A DNA stretch of 64,000 nucleotides from Mycolicibacterium fluoranthenivorans (GTDB lineage: Bacteria; Actinomycetota; Actinomycetes; Mycobacteriales; Mycobacteriaceae), in NCBI RefSeq assembly GCF_011758805.1, contig NZ_JAANOW010000001.1, forward strand, positions 1,860,001 through 1,924,000. The letters run 5' to 3'. Shown piece by piece: positions 12,667 to 45,538 of the stretch. The position numbers and the translations under genes were made by a program. The notes below the pieces were generated by a model that worked only from the letters and a program-made list of their open reading frames with translations, ran no database searches and was not told where the DNA came from. Each line of letters starts with the position of its first letter. Positions within the stretch are counted from its first letter, which is position 1.

Positions 12667-12740
12667 CGCGGGGTGGAGCAGCTCGGTAGCTCGCTGGGCT
12701 CATAACCCAGAGGTCGCAGGTTCGAATCCTGTCCCCGCTA
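12667..12740 (+). tRNA. Initiator tRNA-fMet (CAT)
   Basis: A complete cloverleaf with anticodon CAT in loop CTCATAA. Initiator features are visible: three G-C pairs at the base of the anticodon stem (GGG/CCC) and an unpaired first position (C1 against T72). The T-loop reads TTCGAAT. CCA is not encoded. Its 3' half is duplicated at 22405-22449 and, with changes, at 45487-45530, which marks it as an integration target. Confidence 0.95.
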
Positions 12741-12741
12741 C
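12697..12741 (+). other. Attachment site (attB/attL) in the tRNA 3' half
   Basis: These 45 bp are identical to 22405-22449. The repeat runs from the anticodon stem to just past the discriminator base, the classical crossover segment for tyrosine integrases that use tRNA genes. Confidence 0.85.
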
Positions 12742-22404: not shown

Positions 22405-22449
22405 GGCTCATAACCCAGAGGTCGCAGGTTCGAATCCTGTCCCCGCTAC
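22405..22449 (+). other. Second attachment site (exact tRNA 3'-half copy)
   Basis: 45 bp identical to 12697-12741 in the initiator tRNA. The 5' half of the tRNA is absent, so this is not a functional gene. It marks the boundary between islands A and B. Confidence 0.9.
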
Positions 22450-22882: not shown

Positions 22883-25800
22883 TCACATGGCGGGCAGTGC
22901 GCCGAAGGCTTCGGCTGGTAGCCGAACCGCCTCGCCTTCGATCACGCCGACCCACCCGAGCCAGCGCCAAGCCGCCTCACTCGCGGCCAGCAGAGTGCCT
23001 GACGGTTCGTGCCATGTAGCGACCTCGCCTTCGGGGAGATGCTCGATCCGCCAGTTGAGCGGCTCGCTAGTGGCCGTGTTCCACAGCCGTACTGACCCAT
23101 CGCCAGCAGCTATGGCCAGTGTGGTGCCGTCAGGGCTGTATGTCACTGCCTCTACTCCGTCCTGGTGGCCGGGAAAGCTGCGGACGGTCTTGCCAGTGGC
23201 AGCGTCACACACTCGTACCGACCTGTTGAAGCGACTGGCTATGGCCAGTGTGGTGCCGTCGGGGCTGTATGCCGCCGCCGCAACTCCGTCCGCGTGGCCG
23301 GGAAAGGTATGCAATTCCTCGCCGGTGACCGCGTCCCAAACTCGAACGGCCCCATCGCCTTTGCCGCCGCTAATCAGTCGTTTGCCGTCGGGGCTATAGG
23401 CCACGGTCGCCACCGCGCCGCGGTGGCCTGCGCAGGAGAGCCGATCTCGGCCAGTGGCCGCATCCCACACTCGCACCGGATCGTTGTACCCGCCGCCGCT
23501 GACCAGACGGGTGCCGTCAGGGCTGTAGGCCACCGCGACCACGCCACCGCGGTGGGCGGTGAAGGCGAGGAGTGGTTCGCCGGTGGCTGGATTCCAGATC
23601 CGTATGGCTCCGTCGCTGCTGCCGGCTGTGGCGAGTTGGGTGCCGTCGGGGCTGTATGTCATTGCCGATACGTCGCCGTGGTGGGCGGTGAAGGTCAGCT
23701 GTGGTTCGCCGGTGGCTGGATTCCAGATCCGTATGGCTCCGTCGCTGCTGCCGGCTGTGGCGAGTTGGGTGCCGTCGGGGCTGTATGTCATTGCCGATAC
23801 GTCGCCGTGGTGGGCGGTGAAGGTCAGCTGTGGTTCGCCGGTGGCTGGATTCCAGATCCGTATGGCTCCGTCGCCGCTGCCGGCTGTGGCGAGTTGAGTG
23901 CCGTCGGGGCTGAAGGTCATCGCCGATACCGCCCCGCGGTCGCTGGGGAATGTGAGGAGCGGTTCGCCAGTGGTCGCGTCCCACACCCGTACTGCTTCTT
24001 CAGCGTTGCCGGCTAAGGCAATGCGGGTGCCGTCAGGGCTGTAGGTCATTGTCGACACGGCCCCGCGGCCGCTGGGAAACGTGACGAGTGGTTCACCGTC
24101 CGCCGCGTCCCAAACCTGAATGGACCCATCGCCGCGGCCGACGATTGCTAGGCGGGTGCTGTCCGGGCTGTACGTCACAGCCGGTACCCAACCGCGGTGG
24201 CCAGCAAAGGTGAGGACCGCTTCGCCGGTCGCAGCGTCCCACACCCGTACCCACCCATCGTGGCCGGTAGTGGCCAGGTTCACGCCGTCGGGGCTATAAG
24301 TCACCGCCGACACCGGGCCGTTGAGGCCGTGAAGCGCGAGGAGTGGCTCGCCGGTGGCGGCGTTCCACACCCGCACGGACTCATCGGCTCCCCCGCCACT
24401 GGCCAGCTGGGTCCCGTCGGGGCTGTAGGCCAGCGCCGCGACTCCGTCTTGATGAGCGCGGAAGGTGAGTTGTAGCTCGCCCGTCGCCGCGTCCCATACT
24501 CGCACCGACTCATCGGCTTCGCCGGCACTGGCCAGCTGGGTCCCGTCGGGGCTGTAGGCCAGCGCCGCGACTCCGTCTTGATGAGCGCGGAAGGTGAGTT
24601 GTAGCTCGCCCGTCGCCGCGTCCCATACCCGCACGGACCCATCCAAGCGGCCGCTGCTAACGACGCGGCTGCCGTCAGGACTATAGATCACCACTGACAC
24701 CGAGCCGTGGTGGCCGGCCAGCGTGAGTAATCCCTCGCCGGTCGCCCCATCCCAGACCCGTACAAACCCATCGTCCCCGGCAGTGACCAGGCGCGCGCCG
24801 TTCGGACTGTATGCGACGGCCGATGCGGGGCCGCGGTAGCCGATCAACGATCGCAAACTGAGCCGCGGATCTGCTTGCGCCGCAGGGTGTTCGACGAGCC
24901 ATCCGGGCTGCGGCAGTGTGCCCGTTCGCTCTGGTCTTAGGTTCTGCGCTCTGTACACCGTGGCACCGACGCAGTCGATGCCACCGAGGCTGCAGCGGCG
25001 AAAGACCGTGCCGATGAGGGTCGCGCTCTGCAGTGAAACCCGACTGAGGTCGCAGTCGTGGATCTCGCTCAGAGTAAGGTTGGCGTTATCGAATCGTGCG
25101 TTTCGCAGACGGACGTTTCGGATTACGGCGTCGCGTAGATCAGCTCCTCGCAGGGAGATACCGCTCAGGTCGAGCGGTCGACTTGGCGGCGCGTCGATGC
25201 AAATGCCGCGCAGTTTCGCCCCGTCTAGCACCGCTGCGGCCATCCGATGCACCGGATAGCCTTGATCGTGACACATCAACCCGTAGGCGAACGTCAGCTC
25301 TGACGCTTCGGGCTGGTATCTGCCCGACAGGCTGGCCAGCGCGCGAAAACCGTTGGCACGATCCGCTTTCGCAAGTCCCGCGAAGCTCTGCCCTAAAAAG
25401 TCCAGCGTCTCTCGGCTTGGTATCGGCATCGTCCATGTCTTCGCCAGCCGATCGGGGTCGGTCGAAAATTCAGTCAAGGCGCGCACCAGATACTGTGACA
25501 GGAAGTATTCGCGCAAAGAAGTGTGCGCGAATTCAAACGTATCGTCGTCGCGCCGGACCAGGAAAGTCGCGGTCCGCAAGTCGTCCTTCCACTGGTCCGG
25601 CATGCGCTGTGGGTAGTGGAGTTCTAGATCAGAACGTGAATGAAGAAACATCACAAGCCACTGCTCGACGTCTGCGATATCCCAACCCGACCGGCCCGTC
25701 CGCCATAAATCTGCTGCCAGATGTTCCATCAAGAGGACCTTGTGCTGGGGCAAAAGGCAGTGTTTGCCCTCGTCGCGGGCAAGCCACCGCGACACAATCG

Positions 25801-27598
25801 CACCGTATAGATCGACTGCGCGGACAGTGCGCCCATCCAGTCGCGCTTGTTCGATGTACTCGAGTTGCTCGGTGATCATTCGTAGGGTCAGCGGGCGGGT
25901 CGCCAGTTCGCGGAGATTGTGAGTGGCATCGATCGTTGCGATCACTGCGTCGACGTCGACGTCTGGCACATTGGCGGCGATGTAGGCGCGGATCTGTGGT
26001 TCGGTGAACGGAACCATCAGCAATGCGAGGTGGTCACGCCCGATGGCGCTCTCGCGATCTTGGCCACTGAAATGAGTTGCTTCGTCACGTATCGACCGGA
26101 AGAAGTGGGTGCGGCAGGTGAGAAGGAGCTTCGACCGCAGCCGGTCTGATGTCATGGTGGTCGAACCCAGATCAGCCGTTGCGCGCCAAAGGGTCCGGGT
26201 AAATAGCTGCTGTTCCTGCGGCGGGAGGTGCACCAGCACTTCGTCGAGCCCGTCGAAGATGACCAAACACTGCCCCTGGCGAATGCAGGTCACGACATCA
26301 TCAACCGTCGGGTGCGGGCCTGTGTCTTCTGTTCCACGCAGAACGGCGTCAAGAATCTCGCGCAGCGTCGGGTTAGCCACAATTACGCGCTTGGGTACAT
26401 CACGGAGGTCGAAATACAGCGGCATCGGGACAGCTGCGCTGGTGCGACGCTCATCGAGCAACCGTTGTGTCAGTAGCTTCGCAGTCGTCGTCTTACCCGT
26501 CCCGACGTCGCCAAGCAACGCACATAGCCGCGGCTCGTCAGTTCCAGCCGCCCAATCGAGGAGCCGGTCTATGGCAGGGGTTGGATCGCCGAGGTGCCGC
26601 TCCTTCGACAACCCCACGGCGGCGGACTCCAACGATGTCTCTCGCAGTGTGCCGGGAACGTGAGCAGTGACGTCCCCGCGGCGTTGCGTGTTCAGCAGCA
26701 CCCACTGTTCGATGCTGCGACCTGCGCTTCGCCCGTTTCCCATTGGGCGGTCCGCCTCGACGGTTATCTCCCTCACCACCTGATCGAGAAGGGATCGCCG
26801 TTCGGCTGGCGTTGATGCGCACCATGCCTTTCCGGTCAGCAAGTGGTCCAGATTGAGGCCGCGTTTTTTCAGCGGACCTCGCGGAAGCGGATAGTAGGGG
26901 ACCAATATGACTCGGCGATGCGCCACGATCCGGGAAAGCTGCCGCTCATCGCCGCCGAGCAGCGCTGGACTTACCAAGACGACAACAATGTCCGCGCCAG
27001 CCATCAGCTCGTCGTTACCAATGCCGAGGCGAATGTCAAGGTCGCTGGTGACTGTCCACTGTCTGTCGGAGCGAACGGCCATCGCAGTTGTCAAGGCGCC
27101 AACAAACTCTTGCAACTTGGGGTCGTGTTCGTGCTCGGATGCGGCACAGGCGTGAACGAGGACGTTAGGTGGCCCGTCGAACACCTCCTGAACGTGCGCT
27201 CCCACGGGTCGACTCGGTGCGCCCCGGCTCGCCTCGTGTCGAGCCATATCGGTCAGCCGCGCCTCCGCCATGTCAGTGCCCTCGAACCAGCACCGGCGCT
27301 GGGTAGGTGCGATTTTCTGCCCGTCGACTTCTATCGAAAACGCAACTCCGACCGCGCTTGCGGCCGACCGCACCGACTTACGAAATTGGCGGAATGCCGC
27401 CTGTCTCGCCCGTTCGTCAGAGCCAGTCGTGGTCACTTCGAGGGCTCGCGAAAACGCGATCATTCCGTCATCGCCGATCGACTCGGCAAGTTCAGCCAAG
27501 CGCCCACGCTGCCTCGGGGTCAGGTCATCGGCCAGGCGCTCAATCATGTCTTGAACCTGTAGTCGCGAGAGTCGCTGTGTCGTCAAAGCCGCCGCCAT
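22883..27598 (-). CDS. NACHT/STAND NTPase with TIR-like region and 14 WD40 repeats
   Basis: A 1571-aa multidomain protein. Residues 1-110 are helical and resemble an effector-associated adaptor. Residues 145-280 form an alpha/beta domain with TIR-like pattern (NVLVHACAAS ... GADIVVVLVSPALL). A NACHT ATPase follows: Walker A GDVGTGKT at 363-370 and Walker B CLVIFDGLDEV at 444-454. Winged-helix and helical regions occupy 520-790, and a pentapeptide-like stretch lies at 809-880 (LSGISLRGADLRDA). Fourteen WD40 repeats at about 920-1535 would make two seven-blade propellers. Such proteins sense a ligand with the repeats, oligomerise through NACHT and trigger an effector, as in prokaryotic NLR-like defence. 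It overlaps the upstream TIR gene by 16 bp. The phage-defence role is inferred. Three adjacent repeats (8-10) are nearly identical at DNA level. Confidence 0.9.
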   Translation of the reverse strand: MAAALTTQRLSRLQVQDMIERLADDLTPRQRGRLAELAESIGDDGMIAFSRALEVTTTGSDERARQAAFRQFRKSVRSAASAVGVAFSIEVDGQKIAPTQRRCWFEGTDMAEARLTDMARHEASRGAPSRPVGAHVQEVFDGPPNVLVHACAASEHEHDPKLQEFVGALTTAMAVRSDRQWTVTSDLDIRLGIGNDELMAGADIVVVLVSPALLGGDERQLSRIVAHRRVILVPYYPLPRGPLKKRGLNLDHLLTGKAWCASTPAERRSLLDQVVREITVEADRPMGNGRSAGRSIEQWVLLNTQRRGDVTAHVPGTLRETSLESAAVGLSKERHLGDPTPAIDRLLDWAAGTDEPRLCALLGDVGTGKTTTAKLLTQRLLDERRTSAAVPMPLYFDLRDVPKRVIVANPTLREILDAVLRGTEDTGPHPTVDDVVTCIRQGQCLVIFDGLDEVLVHLPPQEQQLFTRTLWRATADLGSTTMTSDRLRSKLLLTCRTHFFRSIRDEATHFSGQDRESAIGRDHLALLMVPFTEPQIRAYIAANVPDVDVDAVIATIDATHNLRELATRPLTLRMITEQLEYIEQARLDGRTVRAVDLYGAIVSRWLARDEGKHCLLPQHKVLLMEHLAADLWRTGRSGWDIADVEQWLVMFLHSRSDLELHYPQRMPDQWKDDLRTATFLVRRDDDTFEFAHTSLREYFLSQYLVRALTEFSTDPDRLAKTWTMPIPSRETLDFLGQSFAGLAKADRANGFRALASLSGRYQPEASELTFAYGLMCHDQGYPVHRMAAAVLDGAKLRGICIDAPPSRPLDLSGISLRGADLRDAVIRNVRLRNARFDNANLTLSEIHDCDLSRVSLQSATLIGTVFRRCSLGGIDCVGATVYRAQNLRPERTGTLPQPGWLVEHPAAQADPRLSLRSLIGYRGPASAVAYSPNGARLVTAGDDGFVRVWDGATGEGLLTLAGHHGSVSVVIYSPDGSRVVSSGRLDGSVRVWDAATGELQLTFRAHQDGVAALAYSPDGTQLASAGEADESVRVWDAATGELQLTFRAHQDGVAALAYSPDGTQLASGGGADESVRVWNAATGEPLLALHGLNGPVSAVTYSPDGVNLATTGHDGWVRVWDAATGEAVLTFAGHRGWVPAVTYSPDSTRLAIVGRGDGSIQVWDAADGEPLVTFPSGRGAVSTMTYSPDGTRIALAGNAEEAVRVWDATTGEPLLTFPSDRGAVSAMTFSPDGTQLATAGSGDGAIRIWNPATGEPQLTFTAHHGDVSAMTYSPDGTQLATAGSSDGAIRIWNPATGEPQLTFTAHHGDVSAMTYSPDGTQLATAGSSDGAIRIWNPATGEPLLAFTAHRGGVVAVAYSPDGTRLVSGGGYNDPVRVWDAATGRDRLSCAGHRGAVATVAYSPDGKRLISGGKGDGAVRVWDAVTGEELHTFPGHADGVAAAAYSPDGTTLAIASRFNRSVRVCDAATGKTVRSFPGHQDGVEAVTYSPDGTTLAIAAGDGSVRLWNTATSEPLNWRIEHLPEGEVATWHEPSGTLLAASEAAWRWLGWVGVIEGEAVRLPAEAFGALPAM
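23560..23946 (-). repeat. Three near-identical 129-bp WD40 units
   Basis: Units at about 23560-23688, 23689-23817 and 23818-23946 encode repeats 10, 9 and 8 of the NACHT-WD40 protein, each with TYSPDGTQLATAGS or a close variant. They differ at only a few bases, far less than the other repeats, indicating recent tandem duplication or gene conversion. A second near-identical pair lies at about 24435-24620. Confidence 0.88.
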
Positions 27599-28080
27599 CC
27601 GCGTCCCTGAACGCGACCTTGTATTGCCGTCGCGAGATTACTTGCGTACCTATCTCGGAGTGCTCCTGCCAGGTCGGCATAGGATTTGCCCGCATCGGTG
27701 AAGACTTGGGCGTTCTCGACGCCATGCATGGTTCGGGACCCGTCGAGCGGCACCGTGCGGAGCATCACGGGTAGCGCACGCGCGCTCGCTTTGGCCCCGA
27801 TGATGCGCGGCAACTCTTCGGTCGTCACAAACCGGCTGGCAAAGAATCCGGGACTGAGAAGCAGCAGCGCATAATCGCACTCTGATAGTCGATCAAGGAT
27901 TCCCCGTCGCCAAGCCTCGCCGATCTCCAGCTGCGAATCTTCCCACCAGGAGAAATCAATCCCGCCCAAGATGGCGAGATTCGGTTCGAGGCGCTCCACC
28001 AAGTCCGTCTTGAGAGCGACATCGCGGTGACACCAACTCAGAAACACTCTTACCCGGATCGGCGGTGGCGCCAACATCAT
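27583..28080 (-). CDS. TIR-domain protein
   Basis: A 165-aa protein consisting almost entirely of a TIR domain. It shows VRVFLSWCHRD (first strand and BB-loop region), CDYALLLLSPGFFASRF and the following TTEELPRI, whose Glu is placed like the catalytic Glu of bacterial TIR NADases. The start has GTGAGGAG immediately upstream of two adjacent ATGs. The gene overlaps the NACHT-WD40 gene by 16 bp, which implies translational coupling and a shared pathway. The likely role is NAD+ depletion or signalling nucleotide production on activation by the NACHT partner; this is inferred from the family. Confidence 0.85.
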   Translation of the reverse strand: MMLAPPPIRVRVFLSWCHRDVALKTDLVERLEPNLAILGGIDFSWWEDSQLEIGEAWRRGILDRLSECDYALLLLSPGFFASRFVTTEELPRIIGAKASARALPVMLRTVPLDGSRTMHGVENAQVFTDAGKSYADLAGALRDRYASNLATAIQGRVQGRGWRRL

Positions 28081-28666: not shown

Positions 28667-28996
28667 TCAGGCCGTCAGTTCGACAGTGTCATCACCGAAC
28701 TCAGCGACGATGCGCAGTTGACCGCCGAGCGCGGCGACGTACGCCTGAAGCGTGCCCAGCTCAGTGTGTGACAAGTCGCCGCTCTCTAGCTTCGAAACGC
28801 GGGCCTGAGAGACGCCCATAAGCGCGGCAACGTCCGCTTGGCGGGAGTGGCCCAGCGCCTTGCGGATCTCGGCCAGACGGTGCGCCTGGACGGCCTCACG
28901 CATCTCCTCGCGCGCAGCGCTGGCCCGCTCGGCATCGAGTGCACCCTGCGCGATCGCATCCGCGCGAATGTCTCGCCAGTTACGCGCCATGGTCAT
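28667..28996 (-). CDS. XRE-family antitoxin (HigA-like)
   Basis: A 109-aa protein with a C-terminal Cro/C1 helix-turn-helix (RQADVAALMGVSQARVSKLE) and a charged helical N-terminus. In HigBA-type modules this subunit binds and neutralises the toxin and represses the operon. It starts one base into the toxin stop (TAATG), so the toxin gene comes first, the order typical of HigBA. Confidence 0.88.
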   Translation of the reverse strand: MTMARNWRDIRADAIAQGALDAERASAAREEMREAVQAHRLAEIRKALGHSRQADVAALMGVSQARVSKLESGDLSHTELGTLQAYVAALGGQLRIVAEFGDDTVELTA

Positions 28997-29349
28997 TACC
29001 CTCCGTGCTCGGTCGCCAGCCAGCTCTCGAAGCGCGCGTCCGCAATCGGAATGTTCCTGTCGTACCAGCGCTTCGAGTCACCTGCCTTGTCGCCGCCCAG
29101 GAGCAGGATCGCCTGCCTGGCCGGGTCGAAGATGAACAGGACACGGATGCTGGTGCCGGCCGGGCGCAGCTCCTTCATGTTGTGAAACCTCGAGCCGTTC
29201 ACCTTGTCGACGACCGGCCGGCCCAATGTCGGCCCCTCCAGCTCCAGCAGGTCGATGGCGCCGGCAACCGTCGCCATCGTGTCCCTGTCGAGCGTGAAGA
29301 ACCATTGTTCGACCTCGTCGAGCAGGATCACGTCCCAACGCTTCGACAT
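28996..29349 (-). CDS. RelE/HigB-type toxin
   Basis: A 117-aa protein of the phage-derived Gp49/HigB RelE-fold family, expected to be a ribosome-dependent mRNA endonuclease. Family landmarks are WDVILLDEVEQWF at the N-terminus, GPTLGRPVVDKVNGSRFHNM in the middle, and the strand IRVLFIFDPARQAILLLGGD. It is coupled by overlapping stop and start to the XRE antitoxin gene. The start lies just downstream of the truncated integrase, so the pair is a typical island passenger. Confidence 0.88.
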   Translation of the reverse strand: MSKRWDVILLDEVEQWFFTLDRDTMATVAGAIDLLELEGPTLGRPVVDKVNGSRFHNMKELRPAGTSIRVLFIFDPARQAILLLGGDKAGDSKRWYDRNIPIADARFESWLATEHGG

Positions 29350-29882: not shown

Positions 29883-30851
29883 TTATGGATTTAAGTCGCC
29901 GGGCTCAGCGATATCGGTTTCAGCGGTCAAGTGGCCATGGCCGCTCAGGTACGTAGGAAGGATCGTGATATCTGCGGGCAGGTCTTCAACATTTGCCATG
30001 AACTGTCTGAACTCATCTTCTTCTAGCCTTGCGCCCGACAGAATAAGGTCGATTTTTGGCTTGCTCCAAGCCTCACTGACTCTCACATCCTCCACGGGGC
30101 GGAGTTCTGCGGCGAGAGATAACACATGGTCAAGAGTCGCCGTGACATCAACTGCGGCCTGTCGAGGATTGACGACAAGAAGCTCTTCGGTCTGTGAAGG
30201 CCTGAGCAACATCGGATCTCTCAGAATTCGAGCTCCTGACGCAAGGAACTGTTCGCACCAGATGTCTCCCACATAGTCAGACCAACTTGGGAGCTCTGCC
30301 GGATAGAAATCTAATACCACCTGAACTAAAGGACCAAGAACGTCACCAAATGTAGCTGCGTACAGCAATTCGCCGTCTAAGGCTTGTTGAGATGATAGCC
30401 ACGGCGAAAACACAGATTCCAAGTTCCGCTGTAGCGGTCGTTCGTAAAATGCAAGGTACTGCCCAACGGCTAGCGGCGCCACTGGCCGGCTAACGACACC
30501 CGCTCGCTTTAGAATCGCCGCACCGCTGTGCGAATTGCGCTTGCTTTCTATCTCGCGAAGGTCGAGTTCCGGTGGTCCCACGCGTCGATAGTCCGAAGCG
30601 AGCTGATCTAAGAACAGCCGTGACGTAGTCGCCGCGCTGGCTCGGTTGGCGGTGGGGTGGACCGACGGGAGGAGTGGGAGGGAGAAGCGATCCACCCTAT
30701 CGAGCTGGTTGTCCCAGACTTGCGATGCGGCCCAAACGATCCGGAGCATTTCCGATTCCTGCGGATCAGCTGCAGGCGCAGGCTTCACAATACCGGCGCG
30801 CAACCTGCGCACCTCAGCCTCAAGCGTCCCAGGCTCCTGCTCTATCGCCAT
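29883..30851 (-). CDS. Unknown protein coupled to the phosphorylase-fold gene
   Basis: A 322-aa soluble protein with no family I recognise. The N-terminus has a short charged helix (EAEVRRLRAG). The middle is rich in Leu and aromatic residues (FYERPLQRNL, VVLDFYPAELPSWSDYVGDIW), and the tail is acidic. No membrane segment or nucleotide motif is seen. It starts at the stop of the phosphorylase-like gene (TAATG), so the two are co-translated and probably act together. The residue pattern suggests an alpha-helical partner or sensor. Base composition is lower in GC than the core genes. Confidence 0.7.
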   Translation of the reverse strand: MAIEQEPGTLEAEVRRLRAGIVKPAPAADPQESEMLRIVWAASQVWDNQLDRVDRFSLPLLPSVHPTANRASAATTSRLFLDQLASDYRRVGPPELDLREIESKRNSHSGAAILKRAGVVSRPVAPLAVGQYLAFYERPLQRNLESVFSPWLSSQQALDGELLYAATFGDVLGPLVQVVLDFYPAELPSWSDYVGDIWCEQFLASGARILRDPMLLRPSQTEELLVVNPRQAAVDVTATLDHVLSLAAELRPVEDVRVSEAWSKPKIDLILSGARLEEDEFRQFMANVEDLPADITILPTYLSGHGHLTAETDIAEPGDLNP

Positions 30852-31711
30852 TACATACCCAGCATAGTCGCGATGGCGCCCGCGAGTTGATTTGAACCCG
30901 CTCTCAGCCGCGCAAGCTGAACCGCATCAGTTTGACCCTGCTTATCCGTTAAGGCGTCGGTCACTACGCGCAAGACGACCACTCGCAAGCCCAAACCCAT
31001 TGCCTCCATGGTGGAAGCGATCCCGAAGGTCTCCATGTCAATCAGGATGGGCGTCTCAGGTTCCATTCCCACGTATTGCGCAAGCGCCTGCGCATACGTC
31101 CAATCCTCCTTGGAGTAGATAGCACCACTGGGTGGCTTATGTATCGGAACAGGTTCAATGCCTGGTGCGACTTTAATAACCTTGTCCGTCGCAAGGACGT
31201 GCGCATCGCGAAGACCCAGCACTGGCTCAGAGCCTGGAGCGCCCGACCAAGCTGGTAGCTCAATTGGGTCGAGTGGCTCTTGCTCGCTAGGCTTGGTGCG
31301 TACGATCCATTTATTTTTTAGCTTGACGACTTCGCCTTGGGGGGAATCGGACACCACGCCGAGCGACATGTAAGACACCCAAGCAACCCGAAATATCTCA
31401 CCAACATGGTTCGTATCTACGGCTCCGCAGCAGCCGTAGAACAAGTAGTAGTCGGCGCGCTCCCCCCAAGCTGACCTGCTGAGCGCCGCGGCCGCAATGA
31501 CATTCCCTTGGGCACTCAACGGGCGGTGCTCCAACCTAGCTACCCGACCATCAGAAAGCTGGCCTTCAACTACTTCCTGTCCGGCCCCAATCAGCGCCCA
31601 CACTGTTGGCCCGAACGCAGGTAAGCCAACATGAACGCGATTCAGCAACTCGGTGACGGCGGTTGCTTCGTTCTTATTGAACGTAAAGATTACGATCGTC
31701 ACATCCGCCAC
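30851..31711 (-). CDS. Purine nucleoside phosphorylase-fold (PNP/MTAN-like) protein
   Basis: A 286-aa protein of the phosphorylase superfamily, which cleaves nucleosides or nucleotides at the N-glycosidic bond. Landmarks are YLFYGCCGAVD (equivalent to the Gly-rich strand), LIDMETFGIASTMEAMGL (equivalent to the EMEGA substrate-binding helix), and VVLRVVTDALTDK with the catalytic Asp. Stand-alone housekeeping enzymes rarely sit in such islands. In defence systems this fold serves as an effector that destroys nucleotides. It is co-translated with the downstream unknown gene. The defence role is inferred. Confidence 0.78.
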   Translation of the reverse strand: MADVTIVIFTFNKNEATAVTELLNRVHVGLPAFGPTVWALIGAGQEVVEGQLSDGRVARLEHRPLSAQGNVIAAAALSRSAWGERADYYLFYGCCGAVDTNHVGEIFRVAWVSYMSLGVVSDSPQGEVVKLKNKWIVRTKPSEQEPLDPIELPAWSGAPGSEPVLGLRDAHVLATDKVIKVAPGIEPVPIHKPPSGAIYSKEDWTYAQALAQYVGMEPETPILIDMETFGIASTMEAMGLGLRVVVLRVVTDALTDKQGQTDAVQLARLRAGSNQLAGAIATMLGM

Positions 31712-36518: not shown

Positions 36519-38168
36519 TCAGTTCTCAGCGGGTTTGATCTTGCTGCTGGCGGCGGCGAAGACGCCGAGGTCTCCGTTCTGGTCCTGGAACAGACCGTTG
36601 CTGGAGTCGTACGTCGTTACGGTAGGGCTGGCGACGGGCGGCGGTATTTCCGATGGCGCTCCGACGGGAGCAGATGAAGGGGTGAGCGCCGGCACAGGGT
36701 TCTGTCCATAGGGTGGGACCTGTTGGTCAGGGGGCGGGTTGTAGGGCAGAGGCGGCGGTGGCGGGCCAAGTGTGACTGGCGGGACGGGCAGCGGATACGG
36801 TGCATACTCTGCTGGCCCCGGGCCGGGGGGCACGCCAGGGGGCAACTGGGTGACCGGGGGACCAGGATCGTAATCTGCACCCGGTGGGATGTAGGGGAAT
36901 TTGTTGTAGGGCAGGATGTTTCGTGGATCGTTAATCGCTGTCGCTTCGGGGACGGCGGGCCCACGCCACGCCTGGTTGCCGATCGGAATATAGCCGGCGG
37001 GGTCCCTACATAGGGCCACGGTGGGAGCGCGCTTGCCGGGGAATTCCTGGCAGGGGTAGTTGCGTGCCCCGCGGACCACCGCGGACGAGTTTTGCGGAAC
37101 TTTGCAGTACATGTCTTTTGGTAGGTCGCGCAGCGTTTGGTCACCCGGGGATCGGATCTCGGTGGGGGGGATGAAGCCGACATTGCACGGTGGCGGATCG
37201 CCCAATCCGAGCTTGAAGTCGACTTTGACGCCTTCATCGGCGGGTAGCTGTTCAGCTGCGCTGATCAGCACGGCGGTCACGGCGGGAAGAACGACGAGAG
37301 TCTGTTCGATGGACTTGTGGTAGATGACACCGATGCGGCCGAAGTTGGCGAGGTTGGCGGCGAGCATCGGGAACGACGGCCTGATGCCACTGAAGGTATT
37401 GGTCGCCGACTCCGCTGCTGCGGGCGTGGTTTGGAGCAGCGCGCGCAGCTGCGGATCGGCTTTGCGTAGTTGGGTGGTGAATCGGGCCAGTCCGTCGGCC
37501 AGCGAGGTGATGTTGTCGCCGCTGCGGATCTGGGCGTCGAGGAACGGGCCGAGTTGGTCGATCAGGGTGGTGGTGTCTTCGCTGCCGGCGTGGAGTTCGT
37601 CGAGCAGCGCTTTGGTGGAGTTGATCAATCGTGCAAGTTCGGGACCGGAGCCGTCGAAGGCGGTTGCTGTTTCGCGCAGGACGTCTTTCAGTTTGCTTTG
37701 ATCCAGCGAGCTGACCAGTCCTTGTGCCTCGCGTAGCAGTCCTGCGATGTCGCCGCTGAGGGTGGTGTGGGATCGGTCGATCACCGATCCGTTGCGCAGA
37801 TCGGCGGCCGAATGGCTGTCGGCTGTGGGGATGAGGTCGACGTATTGTTCGCCGATTGCGGAGACGCTTTTGGCTGCCGCGGTGACGTCGGCGGGAATTG
37901 CGGTGTCGGAGTAGAGCCGCATGTGTACGTCGACGCTCAGGTTGTCGGTCAGCGTGACGGCGGTGATGCGCCCGACGGTGGAGCCACGGTAGGTGACGTT
38001 GCCGTTGGGGTAGAGCCCGCCGCTGGCGGCGAAGTTGGCCGTGACGGTGTACCGCCCGATTCCCAGTGCTTCGGGCACGCGCAAGTAGTACAACGCCAGG
38101 GTGCCGATGGCGAAGACGGTGACGGCCGCGAAGATGCTCAGCTGCCAGCGAGCGAGCCGGGTGAGCAT
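36519..38168 (-). CDS. MCE family protein, MceF type
   Basis: A 549-aa cell-envelope protein with an N-terminal membrane anchor (residues 8-30, LSIFAAVTVFAIGTLALYYL), an MCE/MlaD domain (about 40-120), a long helical stretch, and a Pro-rich C-terminus (about 420-520). Mce proteins form hexameric tubes that carry lipids across the periplasm for an ABC permease. It is the last of six; its ATG shares a base with the MceE stop. The extracytoplasmic C-terminal proline tail is usual for MceF. Confidence 0.92.
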   Translation of the reverse strand: MLTRLARWQLSIFAAVTVFAIGTLALYYLRVPEALGIGRYTVTANFAASGGLYPNGNVTYRGSTVGRITAVTLTDNLSVDVHMRLYSDTAIPADVTAAAKSVSAIGEQYVDLIPTADSHSAADLRNGSVIDRSHTTLSGDIAGLLREAQGLVSSLDQSKLKDVLRETATAFDGSGPELARLINSTKALLDELHAGSEDTTTLIDQLGPFLDAQIRSGDNITSLADGLARFTTQLRKADPQLRALLQTTPAAAESATNTFSGIRPSFPMLAANLANFGRIGVIYHKSIEQTLVVLPAVTAVLISAAEQLPADEGVKVDFKLGLGDPPPCNVGFIPPTEIRSPGDQTLRDLPKDMYCKVPQNSSAVVRGARNYPCQEFPGKRAPTVALCRDPAGYIPIGNQAWRGPAVPEATAINDPRNILPYNKFPYIPPGADYDPGPPVTQLPPGVPPGPGPAEYAPYPLPVPPVTLGPPPPPLPYNPPPDQQVPPYGQNPVPALTPSSAPVGAPSEIPPPVASPTVTTYDSSNGLFQDQNGDLGVFAAASSKIKPAEN

Positions 38169-39334
38169 TAGCGGGGTCCTGTCGGCGGGATGGTGAACGG
38201 GTCGGCAGCTTGTCCGGACAGGTTGGCCTGTTCGCCGATGAGGAAGTCCGGCGTGGTGAGGATTTCGTTGAGGTGCTTCATGTTTGGGTCCAGCGGTGAG
38301 GTGGTGAAGATGTTCTCGCCGAAGCGGCGCTGGGTGAGGTCCAGGGTGGCGATCGCGTTGAGGTAATCACCGCGGATGGCTTGTTTGATCCCGGTTTGAG
38401 GGAAGGGGTAGGTCACGGTGATGGGGAGGGCGTCGATGAGTTCCTGCGCGTGATCGGTTAGTGGTTTGACGACGGCGTAAGAGGCCTTGAGGTCGGCGGT
38501 GATGTCGGTCTTGGTTTGCGCGAGGATGCGTGAGGCGATCTCGCTGAAGCGGCGTAGTGCGGCGAAGGTGTCAACGATTCGTCCGGCGTTGGCGTTGAGA
38601 ATCTGGGTTGCTTGCGGAAGAGCGGCCAGTGCGGCGGTGACCGTGGTGTCCTTGGTGGCGAATTTTGCGGCGACGCGATTGATCGACTCGGTGGCGTTGA
38701 CGATGTCGGTGCTTTGCCGGTCAATCGATGCGGTGAGGTCGGCCAGTTGCGGAAGTAGGTTGGTGAATTGCCCGGCGCGGCCGGCGACGGCGGAGTACAG
38801 CTCGTCGGTGATGTCTTGGAGTGCACCGAGATTGCCCTTGTTGACGACGACACCCAGTGTGGACAGGACTTCCTCGGTGGTGGGATAGCGGCCGGCCCGC
38901 TGCAGCGGGATCGTGGCGCCGTCGGACAACGCGCCTTCGGGTGCTTCGGTGGCAGATTCGGCGAGCGCGACGTGTTGAGAGCCCAGCAGTGAGGTCTGCC
39001 CGATGGTCGCGACGGCGTTGCCCGGCAGGTGTACTGCTGAGCTGAGCGAGAGCTGCAGTGCGGCGTAGAAGGTTCCGTCTGCGCGTTGCCTGACATGTTG
39101 TCCGGACACGCTGCCGACGGTGACATCGTCGACGAGCACCGGCGAGTTCTGCGCCAGTGTGGACACATCCGGTAGTTCGACGGTAATCGTGAACGATCCG
39201 GCGCCGTGCCCGACGGTGCCGGGCATGTCCAGTGAGTTGAGGCCGCCGAACTGGCACCCACTGACCACCGTGATGAGTGACCCGAACGCGGCGAGCCGCC
39301 GCGATGCCCGACCGCGGAGTCGTATGCGGGTCAT
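38168..39334 (-). CDS. MCE family lipoprotein, MceE type (LprK-like)
   Basis: A 388-aa protein whose start is set by the ATGA overlap with the mceD stop at 39331-39334, although the frame is open further upstream. The signal peptide ends in a lipobox VSGC (about residue 29), so the protein is predicted to be a lipoprotein, as MceE usually is. The MCE domain (TVELPDVSTLAQNSPVLVDD) follows. It contributes one subunit to the hexameric lipid channel. Confidence 0.93.
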   Translation of the reverse strand: MTRIRLRGRASRRLAAFGSLITVVSGCQFGGLNSLDMPGTVGHGAGSFTITVELPDVSTLAQNSPVLVDDVTVGSVSGQHVRQRADGTFYAALQLSLSSAVHLPGNAVATIGQTSLLGSQHVALAESATEAPEGALSDGATIPLQRAGRYPTTEEVLSTLGVVVNKGNLGALQDITDELYSAVAGRAGQFTNLLPQLADLTASIDRQSTDIVNATESINRVAAKFATKDTTVTAALAALPQATQILNANAGRIVDTFAALRRFSEIASRILAQTKTDITADLKASYAVVKPLTDHAQELIDALPITVTYPFPQTGIKQAIRGDYLNAIATLDLTQRRFGENIFTTSPLDPNMKHLNEILTTPDFLIGEQANLSGQAADPFTIPPTGPR

Positions 39335-40725
39335 CGGCCGGGTCCCGGTGGCGGTGGCGCCGGCGCGGGTTGTTGCGCCGGATCGGTTTCGGCAGCGGGG
39401 TTCCCCGGTGGAGTCGGTGGGGTCGGGACTGCCTCTGATGCCGGTGGTGGAAGCAGCAGGCTGGCCAGATCGGGTGGGGGCGAGCCAGGCGGCGGGCTCA
39501 TTCCGGGTAGCGGTTGCCATTGCAGCTGCGATACCGGTGTTTGGGCCTTGGCCTGGGTTTGTGGTGTGTCATAGACCATCTGGCCCTTGTAGGCGGTGAT
39601 GGTGTTGATGGGGTGGAAGAGCACGGGCGGGAAGTTCATCATGATTCTCTTGAGGACGGGCGCCATGCGCTGCCGGCAGATCTCGGTGCGTTTGAAGTAC
39701 TCGGGGGTCGCTGCCGCGTCGAACACGCCCGCACAGAGGAATTGGACCGGGTTGGCGATGTTCGGCAGAGACAGGATCGCTCCGATCGAGCCTTGGGCGG
39801 GGTTGTAGATGTTGTAGAAGTTCGCCAGGCCGTTGGGCGCAACGTGCAGTACCTGTTCGATATCTTCGCTGTGCTCGGTGAGCAGCGAGGTGAACTCGGT
39901 CAGCTTGTTCACCTGATTGCCGATCGTGGTGTTGTTGTGGCTGAGGAAGGTTTTGACCTGGGCCAGTGCGGACGTGAGGGCATCCAGCGCGCCAGCCAGG
40001 TCGGTGGAGCTGTCGGCGAAGACCTGTGACAGGGAGGCGACGTGGCCGGTGAACTGGACGATTTGGTCGTTGCTGTGAGACAACGCGTCGACAAGGGTGC
40101 GTAGGTTTTTCACCGTGCCGACCAGATCGTGACGGGAATCACCAAGTCGCCCAGCAGTTTTGGAGAGTTCACGGACGGCGTCACGAAACGATTGACCGTT
40201 GCCGTCGAAGGTGTCGGCTGCTTGATTGATGGCGTCACTGAGCGGACCCTGGAGGCGGCCGTTCTGCGGTCCCAACCGGGTCGACAGCTGGGTCAGTTCA
40301 TCTTTGACGTCATCCCATTCAACGGGAACGGCGGTGCGATCGGCGGGAATGGTGGTGTGGTCGGCGAGTTTGGGTCCGTCTGTGTAGACCGGTGCCAGTT
40401 CGATGCTGCGCGCTGACAGTAGGTTTGGTGCCACAATGACCGCGGCGGCGCCGGCCGGCACGGGAACATCAGGCCGGATAGTGAAGGTGATCTCGGAGTG
40501 CTCTGGCCCGGGTTTGATGCTGGTTACGGATCCGACCGGTACTCCGAGGATCTCGACATCGTCGCCGGGATACAGGCCGACGGCCGAGGAGAAGTACCCG
40601 GTGATGGTCAGGGGCTGGGGTTTGGGCCATGCGGTCAGCAGACCGCCGGCGAGCACGGTCAGCAGGACCGCCAGCAGGTAGAGGCGCCGGTATCCGTTGC
40701 GGAGCCGAACATTGAGTGTGGTCAT
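39331..40725 (-). CDS. MCE family protein, MceD type
   Basis: A 464-aa protein with an N-terminal anchor (RLYLLAVLLTVLAGGLLTAW, residues 14-33), an MCE domain (YFSSAVGLYPGDDVEILGVP), a coiled helical middle, and a Pro-rich C-terminus typical of MceD. It overlaps MceC by 4 bp and MceE by 4 bp. Confidence 0.92.
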   Translation of the reverse strand: MTTLNVRLRNGYRRLYLLAVLLTVLAGGLLTAWPKPQPLTITGYFSSAVGLYPGDDVEILGVPVGSVTSIKPGPEHSEITFTIRPDVPVPAGAAAVIVAPNLLSARSIELAPVYTDGPKLADHTTIPADRTAVPVEWDDVKDELTQLSTRLGPQNGRLQGPLSDAINQAADTFDGNGQSFRDAVRELSKTAGRLGDSRHDLVGTVKNLRTLVDALSHSNDQIVQFTGHVASLSQVFADSSTDLAGALDALTSALAQVKTFLSHNNTTIGNQVNKLTEFTSLLTEHSEDIEQVLHVAPNGLANFYNIYNPAQGSIGAILSLPNIANPVQFLCAGVFDAAATPEYFKRTEICRQRMAPVLKRIMMNFPPVLFHPINTITAYKGQMVYDTPQTQAKAQTPVSQLQWQPLPGMSPPPGSPPPDLASLLLPPPASEAVPTPPTPPGNPAAETDPAQQPAPAPPPPGPGR

Positions 40726-41789
40726 GGTGATTTCGGCCTCACGACGGCGCGTTCGGTGAGAAAGCCGCGCAGGAAGTCGGCGAGACTGTCAGGTAGCTTC
40801 CCGGGTTGGAAGTATGAGTCGAGAAGGACTCCGCCCAAGGTTGGCGGTGGCACTCCGAACACATTGGCCTGGAAGCCAGGGCCCGAGCCGACCACTTCGC
40901 CGAGCGCGGTCGCATATGCGGGAAGCCGGGTGAGCGCTTGGGAGATGTGTTCTCGACGTTCGTTGAGGTTGTCGAGTACAAGGTTCAGCTTGGTCAGGGC
41001 GGGGCCGAGCTGTTCCTGGTTGTCGGTGACGAAACCGGAGAGTTGTCCGGCCAGTGCTTTGATGCCGGTGATGAGTTGGTCGATGGCTTGGCGGCGCGCC
41101 GCGAGTTCACCGAAAAGGACGTTGCCGTCGGTGATCAGCTGGTCGATCTGACTGGAGCGGGCGGCCACGACATCAGAGAGCGACTTGGCGTGATGCAGGA
41201 GCTGTTGGACCTTCTCGTCGCGATTGTTGACGCTGCGCGACAGGCTGGTGATGCCGTCGAGGGCCGCCCGCACCTGCGGGGTGGCATCGCGCATGGCGTC
41301 AGTCAGTGTCTGGAGTGCCTCGACGAATCGGGGTTGATCGAGTTCGCCGACGTTGTGTCCGAGGTCTTGCAGGGCGTTGTTGAGGGTGTAGGGGGTTGTG
41401 GTGCGGGCCAATGGGATGGAGGTGACAGAACCGGATCCGTGGGGTGCGACCTCAATGGAACGTTGGCCGAGCACGGTGTCGGTCTTAATGGCGACCAGTG
41501 ATTGGTCCCCAACTCGGATCTTGCGATCGATGGTGAAGCCGATCTTGGCCGCGCGATGGGTGATGTCGAGTTCGACGCTGTCGACTTTTCCGACGGTGTA
41601 TCCGAAGATCTGCACCGGATTGCCGGTGGCGATACCGCCCGCATGGGCGAAGTAGGCGGTGTACCGCTGGCCTTTGGGCCAGAACGGGAGCTCAGTGTAG
41701 CTGAAGGACACCAGTACCAGGCAGGTCACTACGGCGATACCGAAGATTCCGGTGCGCAGCGGGTCTCGGCGCTCGGGATTATTTGGCAA
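40722..41789 (-). CDS. MCE family protein, MceC type
   Basis: A 355-aa protein with an N-terminal anchor (GIFGIAVVTCLVLVSFSY) and an MCE domain (TAYFAHAGGIATGNPVQIFG), followed by a helical region with regularly spaced Leu. It overlaps MceB by 11 bp and MceD by 4 bp, so translation of the operon is coupled. Confidence 0.92.
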   Translation of the reverse strand: MPNNPERRDPLRTGIFGIAVVTCLVLVSFSYTELPFWPKGQRYTAYFAHAGGIATGNPVQIFGYTVGKVDSVELDITHRAAKIGFTIDRKIRVGDQSLVAIKTDTVLGQRSIEVAPHGSGSVTSIPLARTTTPYTLNNALQDLGHNVGELDQPRFVEALQTLTDAMRDATPQVRAALDGITSLSRSVNNRDEKVQQLLHHAKSLSDVVAARSSQIDQLITDGNVLFGELAARRQAIDQLITGIKALAGQLSGFVTDNQEQLGPALTKLNLVLDNLNERREHISQALTRLPAYATALGEVVGSGPGFQANVFGVPPPTLGGVLLDSYFQPGKLPDSLADFLRGFLTERAVVRPKSP

Positions 41790-42810
41790 AGTCGCACCTA
41801 CCGTTATTGGTCGAGGGTGGGGTCACCGCGGGTAACAGAATGTCGCTGCCGGCCGGGCCGTTGATCTTGATCTTGACCGAGCAGAAATAGATGTTGAAGA
41901 ACGACCCGTAGGCGCCCAGCGCGCTCAGTCGCAGGTAGTCCTCGGCGAGCGGCTCAATCGCGGCATTGACATCCTTCTTGCGGTCATCCAGTGCGGTGGC
42001 GAGTGGGCCGGTGTTCTCGATGACCCCCTGGAAGGGGCGCCGCGCGGTGCTCAGGACATCGGTGAGGTCCTGCTGTGCAGAGGCCAGTGGCGGCAAGCCG
42101 TTGGCAATGGGGTCGCTGCCGCGGCTCAGAGTCGTGACCAGCTGCTGGAGTTGGTCGATCCCGGTACTGAGGTCGGCGCTTTTCTCATCCGCTGCACTGA
42201 GCACGGTGTTGAGATTGTCGATCGTCTGGTCGATGAGTTGATCTCGGGCGGCAATGGTCTGGGTGAAGCTGGCGGTGTTGGCCAGCACAGTCGACAAGGT
42301 CCCGCCCTTGCCCTGCAGCAGTTCGATGAGGGCATTGCTGACCTCGTTCAGCTTGGCTCCGTCCAAGCCTTTGAGCACCGGCCGCAGACCACCAAGCAGT
42401 GCGTCCAGATCCAAGGCGGGTTTGGTGTTGCTGCGCGGGATCGTCGCGCCGGCAGGAAGTTTCCGTAGATCGCCGGGTCCGGCCAGGATCTCCAGGTAGC
42501 GGTCACCAGTGAGATTCTGATAGCGGATCGCGGCTCTCGTGGAGGTGTAGAGCTGCTGTCGTTTATCGACGGTGAAGGTGACCTCGGCATGATCACCGTC
42601 GATGGCGATCTCTTCGACGCTGCCGACCGGGATGCCGGCGATACGGACGTCCTGGCCGGTTTTGAGTCGCGAAACCGAGGTGAATTCGGCGTGATACACA
42701 GTGCTGGAGCCGAATCGGAATTGGCCGAACGTCACCACCAGCCCCGCTAGCACGAGCAGCATGACCACCGTGAACACGCCGACCTTGAGGCCGGTCCGGG
42801 ACGTGGTCAT
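41779..42810 (-). CDS. MCE family protein, MceB type
   Basis: A 343-aa protein with an N-terminal membrane segment (VGVFTVVMLLVLAGLVVTFG) and an MCE domain (AEFTSVSRLKTGQDVRIAGI). Cysteine-containing C-terminal segments (IYFCSVKIKI, GRCDFAK) are typical of MceB. The start overlaps the MceA stop by one base. Confidence 0.92.
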   Translation of the reverse strand: MTTSRTGLKVGVFTVVMLLVLAGLVVTFGQFRFGSSTVYHAEFTSVSRLKTGQDVRIAGIPVGSVEEIAIDGDHAEVTFTVDKRQQLYTSTRAAIRYQNLTGDRYLEILAGPGDLRKLPAGATIPRSNTKPALDLDALLGGLRPVLKGLDGAKLNEVSNALIELLQGKGGTLSTVLANTASFTQTIAARDQLIDQTIDNLNTVLSAADEKSADLSTGIDQLQQLVTTLSRGSDPIANGLPPLASAQQDLTDVLSTARRPFQGVIENTGPLATALDDRKKDVNAAIEPLAEDYLRLSALGAYGSFFNIYFCSVKIKINGPAGSDILLPAVTPPSTNNGRCDFAK

Positions 42811-44066
42811 CAGTAGTCGTCTCGTTCGGCGTAGGCGCCGTTGAACAGGAACTGCAGCGTGGAGGGGGCGTCGAACTGTAGTTCGGTGTTCGGCTGATAG
42901 GGGACATAGGCGTTGTCGGTAACCAGGAACGGTGGTCGATACCAGGAGCCTGCGCCCTGTTTAGTGGGCAGGTCCGGCAATCCGCGGCAGTTGGGCCCAC
43001 CGGAGGCGTTGACGATCGGCAAACTCTCGGGATACGTGTAGGCCGGCGAACCGGGGATGAAGCCGGCGTTGACGAACAGTGCGGGTTTCACACCGCCGAT
43101 GTAGGGGCCGAACTTTTTGTACGCCTTCGCCAATGCCGTGATCAGGCAGCCATATTCGGGTGAATAGTCGCTCAAGACGGTCAACGGAGCGCGGAGTCGT
43201 TGGATCGCCGCGATCAAGTCACCTTCGGCCGGCGCGAGGGTGTCGGCGCCGGCAGTGGCGACGCCGGCCGCGGACAGCAACGTGGCACTGAGATTGTCTT
43301 GCTCGTCGACGACTGTGCGGCTGATGGTGGGGACATTGCCCAGAGCGGACACCAGGTCGTCGGCGGCGGAGCTGTAGATGTCGGCGGTACTGCTCAGTTT
43401 CTGGATATCAGACTGCAGCGTGGGTAGGTGCGGGTTGATCCGGCTCATGAGATCGCCCAACGTGGCTAGGGTGTCTCCGAGGTTTTTTCCGTTGCTGCGC
43501 AGTCCATTTCCCAACGCAGTGAGCGTGGTGTTGAGCTGCACGGGGTCGATCTTGCGCAGCGTGTCGACCAATGTCTGGAACAAGGTGTTCACTTCAAGGC
43601 TGACGTCTGAGGCCTGTAGGTGGGCACGTGGGGATAGCCGGTCGGCGGTCGGGTGCTCGGGCAACTGGAATTCGACGGACTTCGCGCCGAAGATCGTGTT
43701 GCTGGCGATCCGTGCGGTCACGTTGGCCGGGATCTTGGCGAGTTCGTCGGCGCGGATCGCCAGGGTCAGCTGCGCCGAGGCCCCGTCATAGTCGATCTGG
43801 GACACGGTGCCGATCGGGACACCCAGAAATTTGACCTTCGCGTCGCGATCCATGACCAGTCCCGCACGCTGGGACGTGAGGGTGACCGTGTCAGTGTCGG
43901 CGAACGCGCCCTGATACCCCAGATAGACGACGCCCGATGCGAAAGCAAGTAGCGCCGTCATCACTGCCGCGGCGACGCGTACGTGAGCGCGACGACTCAC
44001 CCGACGCTCTTCGTTGCTGCATCGCACACCGACCGCGACGGCGAATTGGTGCGCGCGCATCGCCAC
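42810..44066 (-). CDS. MCE family protein, MceA type
   Basis: A 418-aa protein that opens the mce operon. The anchor is VRVAAAVMTALLAFASGVVY (about residues 29-48) and the MCE domain follows (QRAGLVMDRDAKVKFLGVPI). The basic N-terminus before the anchor suggests the true start may be the in-frame GTG of SRRAHVRV. In known mce loci two yrbE permease genes precede mceA. Here the upstream 230 bp are a divergent promoter and the next gene runs the other way, so no permease is encoded. The operon must borrow a YrbE/MceG transporter or use a different one. Confidence 0.93.
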   Translation of the reverse strand: MAMRAHQFAVAVGVRCSNEERRVSRRAHVRVAAAVMTALLAFASGVVYLGYQGAFADTDTVTLTSQRAGLVMDRDAKVKFLGVPIGTVSQIDYDGASAQLTLAIRADELAKIPANVTARIASNTIFGAKSVEFQLPEHPTADRLSPRAHLQASDVSLEVNTLFQTLVDTLRKIDPVQLNTTLTALGNGLRSNGKNLGDTLATLGDLMSRINPHLPTLQSDIQKLSSTADIYSSAADDLVSALGNVPTISRTVVDEQDNLSATLLSAAGVATAGADTLAPAEGDLIAAIQRLRAPLTVLSDYSPEYGCLITALAKAYKKFGPYIGGVKPALFVNAGFIPGSPAYTYPESLPIVNASGGPNCRGLPDLPTKQGAGSWYRPPFLVTDNAYVPYQPNTELQFDAPSTLQFLFNGAYAERDDY

Positions 44067-45486: not shown

Positions 45487-45530
45487 GCTCATAACCCAGA
45501 GGTGCAGGTTCGAATCCTGTTCCCGCTACC
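45487..45530 (+). other. Fourth attachment-site copy (right boundary)
   Basis: Matches the tRNA 3' half from CTCATAA to CCCGCTAC with one missing base and one C-to-T change. This damages the T-stem, so it is not a tRNA gene. It is the rightmost copy and probably the end of the island stack. Confidence 0.85.
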
Positions 45531-45538
45531 AGTAGGAA

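Follow-up and report, generated by a model that had tools for sequence, protein, structure and literature searches.

Why should an immune receptor that already holds a TIR domain be encoded beside a second, separate TIR? The question is posed by a gene pair in a 64,000-nt stretch of the Mycolicibacterium fluoranthenivorans genome (contig NZ_JAANOW010000001.1, positions 1,860,001 to 1,924,000; hereafter the window), in which a gene for a 165-aa TIR protein is followed by an overlapping gene for a 1571-aa NACHT-WD40 receptor, both on the minus strand (Table 1). A preliminary description of the window had flagged the combination of a separate TIR and an internal TIR-like domain as unusual. The oddity proved informative and recurrent: a separate TIR is an alternative to a Glu-bearing TIR fused into the receptor, and the two are mutually exclusive in the loci that we scored. 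The pair is a NOD-like receptor (NLR)-like system whose effector is divided into a presumably live and a dead TIR.

Separate and fused TIRs as alternatives

The stand-alone protein has the features of a catalytic TIR, and the receptor carries a homologous domain that lacks the catalytic Glu. The stand-alone TIR exceeds the curated Pfam threshold for TIR_2 (38.4 bits, cut-off 28, E 2e-9), is the sole TIR_2 match in the window's own genome (E 0.001) and is modelled at a predicted local distance difference test score (pLDDT) of 90.5. Its presumed catalytic residue, Glu89, is invariant across a 32-sequence alignment. Structure prediction also bears out the internal TIR-like region of the receptor: residues ~142–284 adopt a TIR-like fold in the predicted model, and the TIRs of TLR and MyD88 are among its fold matches. 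Profile-profile comparison supports TIR homology of this slot, with probabilities of 90.5 for the window and Frankia type, 96.1 for Amycolatopsis and 99.0 for the Pseudonocardiaceae type. The region first noted as TIR-like is homologous to TIR but no longer has the catalytic residue, Gln standing at that place of the alignment in the window's receptor; we call it a pseudo-TIR.

Relatives of the receptor allowed this arrangement to be scored. A scan of GTDB genome contigs returned 189 relatives, and the analysis was done on the best 80; one locus (L034) was dropped, its best frame having no Walker A, which left 79 loci and the window as 80 entries. TIRs were sought in six-frame open reading frames (ORFs) of at least 60 aa with a profile whose scores are biased towards the kinds it was trained on, because it was built from seven separate and eight fused TIRs, the window's included. 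Thirty entries were set aside: 23 without any TIR, in the slot or separate, four with less than 600 nt of upstream DNA (L051, L056, L060 and L070) and three that were doubtful (L036, L058 and L071). L051, which has no Glu and a contig end upstream, is neutral towards the rule.

Receptors that keep the catalytic Glu are those for which no separate TIR was found. The 50 scorable loci comprise 37 with a separate upstream TIR and 13 with none within the 1.3–7.9 kb of upstream DNA available, copies elsewhere in the genome being possible. All 13 of the latter keep Glu in the receptor domain; when a separate TIR is present, the receptor domain has no Glu in 35 of 37 loci and Glu in the aligned column in two (Fisher p 3e-10, a value that ignores relatedness and for which the tree counts below are the fairer test). 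Profile scores of the fused domain reach at most 83 bits beside a separate TIR and span 32–204 bits without one. Pfam searches of 10 of the 23 receptors without a TIR recognised a nucleoside-phosphorylase-like domain (PF01048) in seven, a weak TIR_2 in one and NNH6 only in two (L062 and L080, the latter cut at a contig end); the label PNPlong reflects the length of the slot, and 7 of the 18 so labelled were confirmed by Pfam. Taken together, the Pfam assignments and column counts indicate that the slot usually holds an effector, and that a Glu-less slot TIR goes with a Glu-bearing separate TIR.

Phylogenies indicate that the two states have switched several times. On an IQ-TREE phylogeny of the NACHT region (76 rows, of which 37 are separate and 13 fused, with L036, L058, L071 and L080 dropped), separate versus fused takes four changes (four to five across bootstraps, three being forced by starred branches), a count that gives the number of switches and not their direction. 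A single clade of all 37 separate loci is rejected by the approximately unbiased (AU) test (p-AU 1.3e-35). A quick TIR tree, supported only by the Shimodaira–Hasegawa-like approximate likelihood-ratio test (SH-aLRT), places the pseudo-TIRs and separate TIRs of Amycolatopsis as sisters (86) within a 99% branch that also holds the fused, Glu-bearing TIR of Nocardia aurantia. This is the topology to be expected if a fused TIR was duplicated and the fused copy then decayed. Acidobacterial separate TIRs fall among Glu-bearing fused TIRs (91) and their pseudo-TIRs branch elsewhere; actinobacterial pseudo-TIRs, the window's included, lie apart on long branches.

Constraint on the pseudo-TIR and its proposed role

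The pseudo-TIRs have mostly lost one set of residues and kept another. Numbered as in the stand-alone TIR, those mostly lost are F13 (retained in 2/37), S15 (9/37), W46 (9/37), I61 (2/37), G120 (7/37) and E89 (2/37), with F13, S15 and W46 probably lying in the pocket. The catalytic column is a gap in 17 of the 37 paired receptors, in 11 of which, a Frankia-like clade, it falls within a longer missing stretch. Those kept are G54 (36/37), L74 (34/37), S76 (34/37) and L107 (31/37). G54, equivalent to receptor Gly192, is predicted by the stand-alone model to sit in the BB loop, which joins strand B to helix B, and we take it to correspond to the BB-loop glycine of SARM1. This near-invariant glycine of the pseudo-TIRs spans several phyla.

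The pseudo-TIR shows evolutionary constraint. Across 12 close pairs, which were chosen by hand and share some members, the ratio of nonsynonymous to synonymous substitution rates (dN/dS) was 0.21–0.66 for the pseudo-TIR, 0.22–0.48 for the separate TIR, 0.21–0.39 for NNH6 and 0.08–0.40 for NACHT. The pseudo-TIR stays below 1 in all 12 pairs and is constrained, less so than the ATPase.

We think it probable that the pair works as a split-effector NLR, presumably in phage defence, in which the receptor's pseudo-TIR would recruit and template the separate catalytic TIR, with loss of NAD+ on activation. The WD40 repeats would sense an intruder, and the NACHT ATPase, judging by its family, would then oligomerise and cluster the pseudo-TIRs. 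These would dock the stand-alone TIR through TIR–TIR contact and supply the BB-loop-side neighbour of the two-subunit composite active site on which TIR NADases depend; the activated TIR would consume NAD+, and cell growth would stop. Sister lineages have a fused TIR that keeps its Glu; in the split lineages, where the enzyme is a neighbouring gene, the fused copy would have turned into a non-catalytic docking domain. Two papers describe precedents: composite TIR active sites form through head-to-tail BB-loop contacts (PMC11156904), and SpbK makes such contacts and such a site, its BB-loop mutant losing NADase activity (PMC12847820). The tight overlap of the two genes fits co-translation of TIR and receptor as partners.

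The pseudo-TIR might instead be an inhibitor or decoy, restraining the separate TIR or absorbing phage anti-TIR factors and freeing the enzyme upon sensing. A homologous domain, encoded in a shared operon and kept under constraint, would suit such a part; Kaur et al. 2020 suggest that effectors whose enzymatic domains are inactive may act as decoys (PMC7159879), and the TIR of SPARTA is reported to be inactive in the resting complex (PMC11156904, PMC10474274). By itself, however, inhibition explains neither the retention of the BB-loop Gly nor why a second TIR copy is seen at none of the 13 loci whose fused TIR keeps its Glu. Neither point is strong, and we regard the explanation as unlikely.

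An order like that of Thoeris appears more improbable still. The separate TIR would then make a nucleotide signal bound by the pseudo-TIR or NNH6, and the receptor would act downstream. ThsB is indeed the best PADLOC match of the stand-alone TIR (37.9 bits), but Pfam recognised no further effector enzyme in receptor residues 1–305, the TIR belongs to the receptor chain in the fused relatives, and genes that overlap so closely point to a complex. PADLOC found no ThsA partner among seven neighbourhood proteins.

Several observations weigh against the split-effector account. In two paired loci, L061 and L078, Glu does occupy the aligned column, the stretch being doubtful in each (at this position the relatives of L061 carry G, D, F or P). 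L045 has a fused TIR_2 of 22.9 bits (cut-off 28), and the little upstream DNA available for it shows no separate TIR; the TIR and receptor genes lie ~95–1374 nt apart in six paired loci. The BB-loop Gly is missing from 3 of 16 fused Glu-bearing TIRs, and its retention in pseudo-TIRs can be explained by the fold alone. Our own TIR profile finds no slot match in 18 of the 37 paired receptors, the window's included, so that their column counts depend on a MAFFT alignment of weak homologues. An origin by duplication is visible for Amycolatopsis only, because elsewhere the pseudo-TIRs do not group with separate TIRs. Finally, dN/dS of the pseudo-TIR exceeds that of NACHT in 11 of the 12 pairs and equals it in one.

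The faster change and the missing profile matches, together with the loss of the catalytic Glu, are also what a functionless, decaying remnant would leave, the separate TIR then acting alone or through NNH6. We give this little credence: the slot is still occupied in all 37 aligned paired receptors, dN/dS never reaches 1, and one glycine is near-invariant across phyla. A broader proposal, that bacterial NLRs have repeatedly split a TIR into a catalytic TIR and a BB-loop-donating pseudo-TIR, yielding a heteromeric enzyme with a receptor-borne pseudoenzyme convergent with animal TIR adaptors, is one that we advance tentatively, with less confidence than the split-effector mechanism itself.

Organisation, distribution and surroundings of the pair

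The receptor has an NLR-type layout: NACHT with its Walker motifs follows an effector region at the N-terminus and precedes the C-terminal repeats, and the live effector is supplied in trans. Much of the preliminary description stood up here. The 14 WD40 repeats, NACHT and the pentapeptide stretch of the 1571-aa protein are confirmed, Pfam and a motif count each arriving at 14 WD40 stretches, and the landmark residues reported as intact, the TIR Glu and the receptor Walker motifs, are both present. An adaptor-like N-terminus had been proposed; a domain is there, its identity refined to NNH6 (PF22737), and the genome search recovered it again. An entry 100% identical to the receptor (P0009) carries a precomputed PF05729 annotation. 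Two adjacent WD40 units of the window's receptor are identical at 126 of 129 DNA positions, a sign that repeats were duplicated recently. Both overlapping ORFs lie where they were first described, and the extent of their overlap is revised: the start codon of the receptor is probably TTG 27586, at residue 5 of the ORF as listed, and not the ATG that gives a 16-nt overlap. The TTG yields the 4-nt overlap common among relatives; of 40 paired entries, the window and doubtful entries counted, 25 offer a receptor start that overlaps the TIR stop by 4 or 1 nt.

Table 1. Features of the TIR–receptor pair and its flank (window coordinates; residues counted from the receptor ATG)
Feature	Coordinates	Strand	Evidence or remark
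Stand-alone catalytic-type TIR protein, first gene of the pair, 165 aa	27583..28080	-	TIR_2 E 2e-9; model pLDDT 90.5; E89
Glu89 codon, presumed catalytic Glu of the stand-alone TIR	27814..27816	-	Glu in 37/37 stand-alone TIRs, window counted
NLR-like receptor, NNH6 - pseudo-TIR - NACHT - pentapeptide - 14 WD40, 1571 aa counted from ATG	22883..27598	-
TTGA, likely receptor start (TTG)	27583..27586	-	4-nt overlap with TIR stop codon
NNH6 (PF22737) N-terminal helical domain, residues 15-122	27233..27556	-	91.2 bits, E 6.4e-26, cut-off 27
Pseudo-TIR domain, residues ~142-284	26747..27175	-
Gly192, BB loop (strand B-helix B) of the pseudo-TIR	27023..27025	-	Gly in 36/37 pseudo-TIRs
Walker A of the NACHT ATPase, LLGDVGTGKT, from residue 361	26489..26518	-
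Walker B-like motif LVIFDGLDE, from residue 445	26240..26266	-
Pentapeptide-repeat stretch, residues ~788-881	24956..25237	-	Matches solved pentapeptide-repeat proteins
14 WD40 repeats, presumed sensor	23039..24850	-	Pfam and motif count
45-bp tRNA-Met 3'-end copy, possible attachment-site duplicate beside the pair	22405..22449	+

The TIR and receptor genes are a coupled unit, and their co-occurrence in other genomes is confirmed. In a sample of 394 genomes of the class, the receptor and NNH6 each occur in 13 and a TIR match at E 1e-8 in 18; 13 of these 18 match at E <1e-30 and are the same 13 receptor genomes, the window's own counted, with the TIR adjoining the receptor on the same contig. 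This count and the 50-locus count are not independent, because 11 of the 12 other genomes were already represented among the loci (by ORF-length match); the one new genome, G134 (L092/L112), has a separate TIR at 180 bits. Paired loci come from Actinomycetota, Pseudomonadota, Acidobacteriota, Myxococcota and Armatimonadota. A sample of 396 genomes of the phylum added one more genome, G529. Within the genus (98 sampled genomes), a strong TIR match occurs in the window's genome alone, six others reaching 5.6e-5 at best, and for this reason we infer that the pair was probably acquired horizontally. Searching a plasmid collection with tblastn gave no match, and viral contigs gave one weak locus only.

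Some relatives stand at the margin of the family. The three loci of G529 (L106–L108) are divergent, with weak separate TIRs (60–79 bits), and two of them score the same as L071 and L078, probably being the same record. Three Competibacteraceae receptors (L042, L046 and L056) have a divergent fused TIR-like domain with Glu and without the BB-loop Gly, and L058 resembles a broken relative.

Repeated tRNA ends flank the pair and bear out, in outline, the tRNA-anchored island of the preliminary description. The 45-bp 3' end of a tRNA-Met gene (12697–12741) recurs as the exact copy listed in Table 1 and as an imperfect copy at ~45487–45531, with a similar hairpin after each of the three; from their sequence they look like stacked attachment sites. 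No integrase was found among the subset of window ORFs given to Pfam. Neighbouring minus-strand genes include a Gp49-like (PF05973) and HTH_3 gene pair (28667–29349), presumably a toxin–antitoxin system of HigBA type. Further on (29883–31711), genes for an unassigned 322-aa protein and a 286-aa protein overlap by 1 nt; the latter has a weak match (24 bits, cut-off 25.1) to the PF01048 phosphorylase, which is also the alternative domain of NNH6-NACHT receptors. An mce-type operon of six MlaD/Mce4_CUP1 genes, likewise on the minus strand (36519–44066), lies between tRNA-end copies two and three and points to a host of mycobacterial type.

Relation to known systems

The pair has parallels among several known systems. 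DUF4062 (Swarozyc) was absent from the Pfam matches (E up to 1) of receptor residues 1–305 and from those of the TIR, SIR2 and SLOG had no Pfam match among the neighbour proteins submitted, and PADLOC gave no Avs match at E 0.01, the Avs content of its library being unchecked. Bacterial NACHT proteins follow a sense-switch-kill scheme, and the antiphage bNACHT proteins have the order of effector, NACHT and sensor seen here; bNACHT25 and bNACHT32 carry a nuclease effector in cis and bNACHT02 and bNACHT12 none that is discernible, whereas the enzyme of the window's pair is a separate gene (PMC12169576).

Conflict systems coupled by effector-associated domains (EADs) likewise place homologous domains on a core protein and a neighbouring effector, with predicted homotypic recruitment, but EADs are described as small and without enzymatic features (PMC7159879). 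The window's pair shares an enzyme fold that is dead on one side. It does not fit the EAD-coupled type, as its shared domain is the TIR itself, with Glu in the separate copy. SPARTA, a pair of TIR-APAZ and Ago, also assembles a composite site from TIRs, of which only two of four may be competent (PMC10474274). Its TIRs are, however, all copies of one protein, its sensor recognises nucleic acid and it has no NACHT.

Other papers place TIRs near related systems. Kaur et al. 2020 and 2021 treat effector-associated domains and STAND (signal transduction ATPases with numerous domains) systems with TIR, a 2024 PNAS paper mentions TIR domains that belong to, or lie close to, genes of STAND and ternary systems, and a 2026 DUF4062 preprint deals with a different TIR-like NADase, one that occurs next to NACHT and WD40 in human proteins. 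In the open-licence literature searched, no title or abstract opening described a NACHT receptor that combines a dead TIR with a separate one.

If the split-effector account is true, the pair offers a clean natural system in which to follow how an enzymatic TIR becomes an adaptor, and its fused and split relatives provide matched controls. The idea that TIR NADases work through a composite active site could then also be tested on two different halves, each mutable by itself. For annotators, the pair suggests that when no effector is recognised in a NACHT receptor, the overlapping gene upstream may encode the enzyme.

Animal TIR adaptors are a further parallel. The TIRs of TLR and MyD88 match the pseudo-TIR fold, and non-catalytic TIRs in that pathway serve docking. 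The canonical TLR/MyD88 pathway is not known to involve a NACHT receptor or a partnered TIR enzyme. Another comparison is with the fused NNH6-TIR-NACHT-WD40 receptors (for example L019; L023 and L068 from Azospirillum; L047 from Hyalangium). These share the chassis of NNH6, TIR slot and NACHT, and relatives of this kind also list pentapeptide and WD40 models, but their TIR lies in the chain and keeps its Glu, with no separate TIR in the available DNA. The preliminary description had called the system undescribed; NACHT receptors, TIR effectors, NNH6 and WD40 sensors are all familiar, and the claim can be made only for the pseudo-TIR split, of which the literature searched gave no description.
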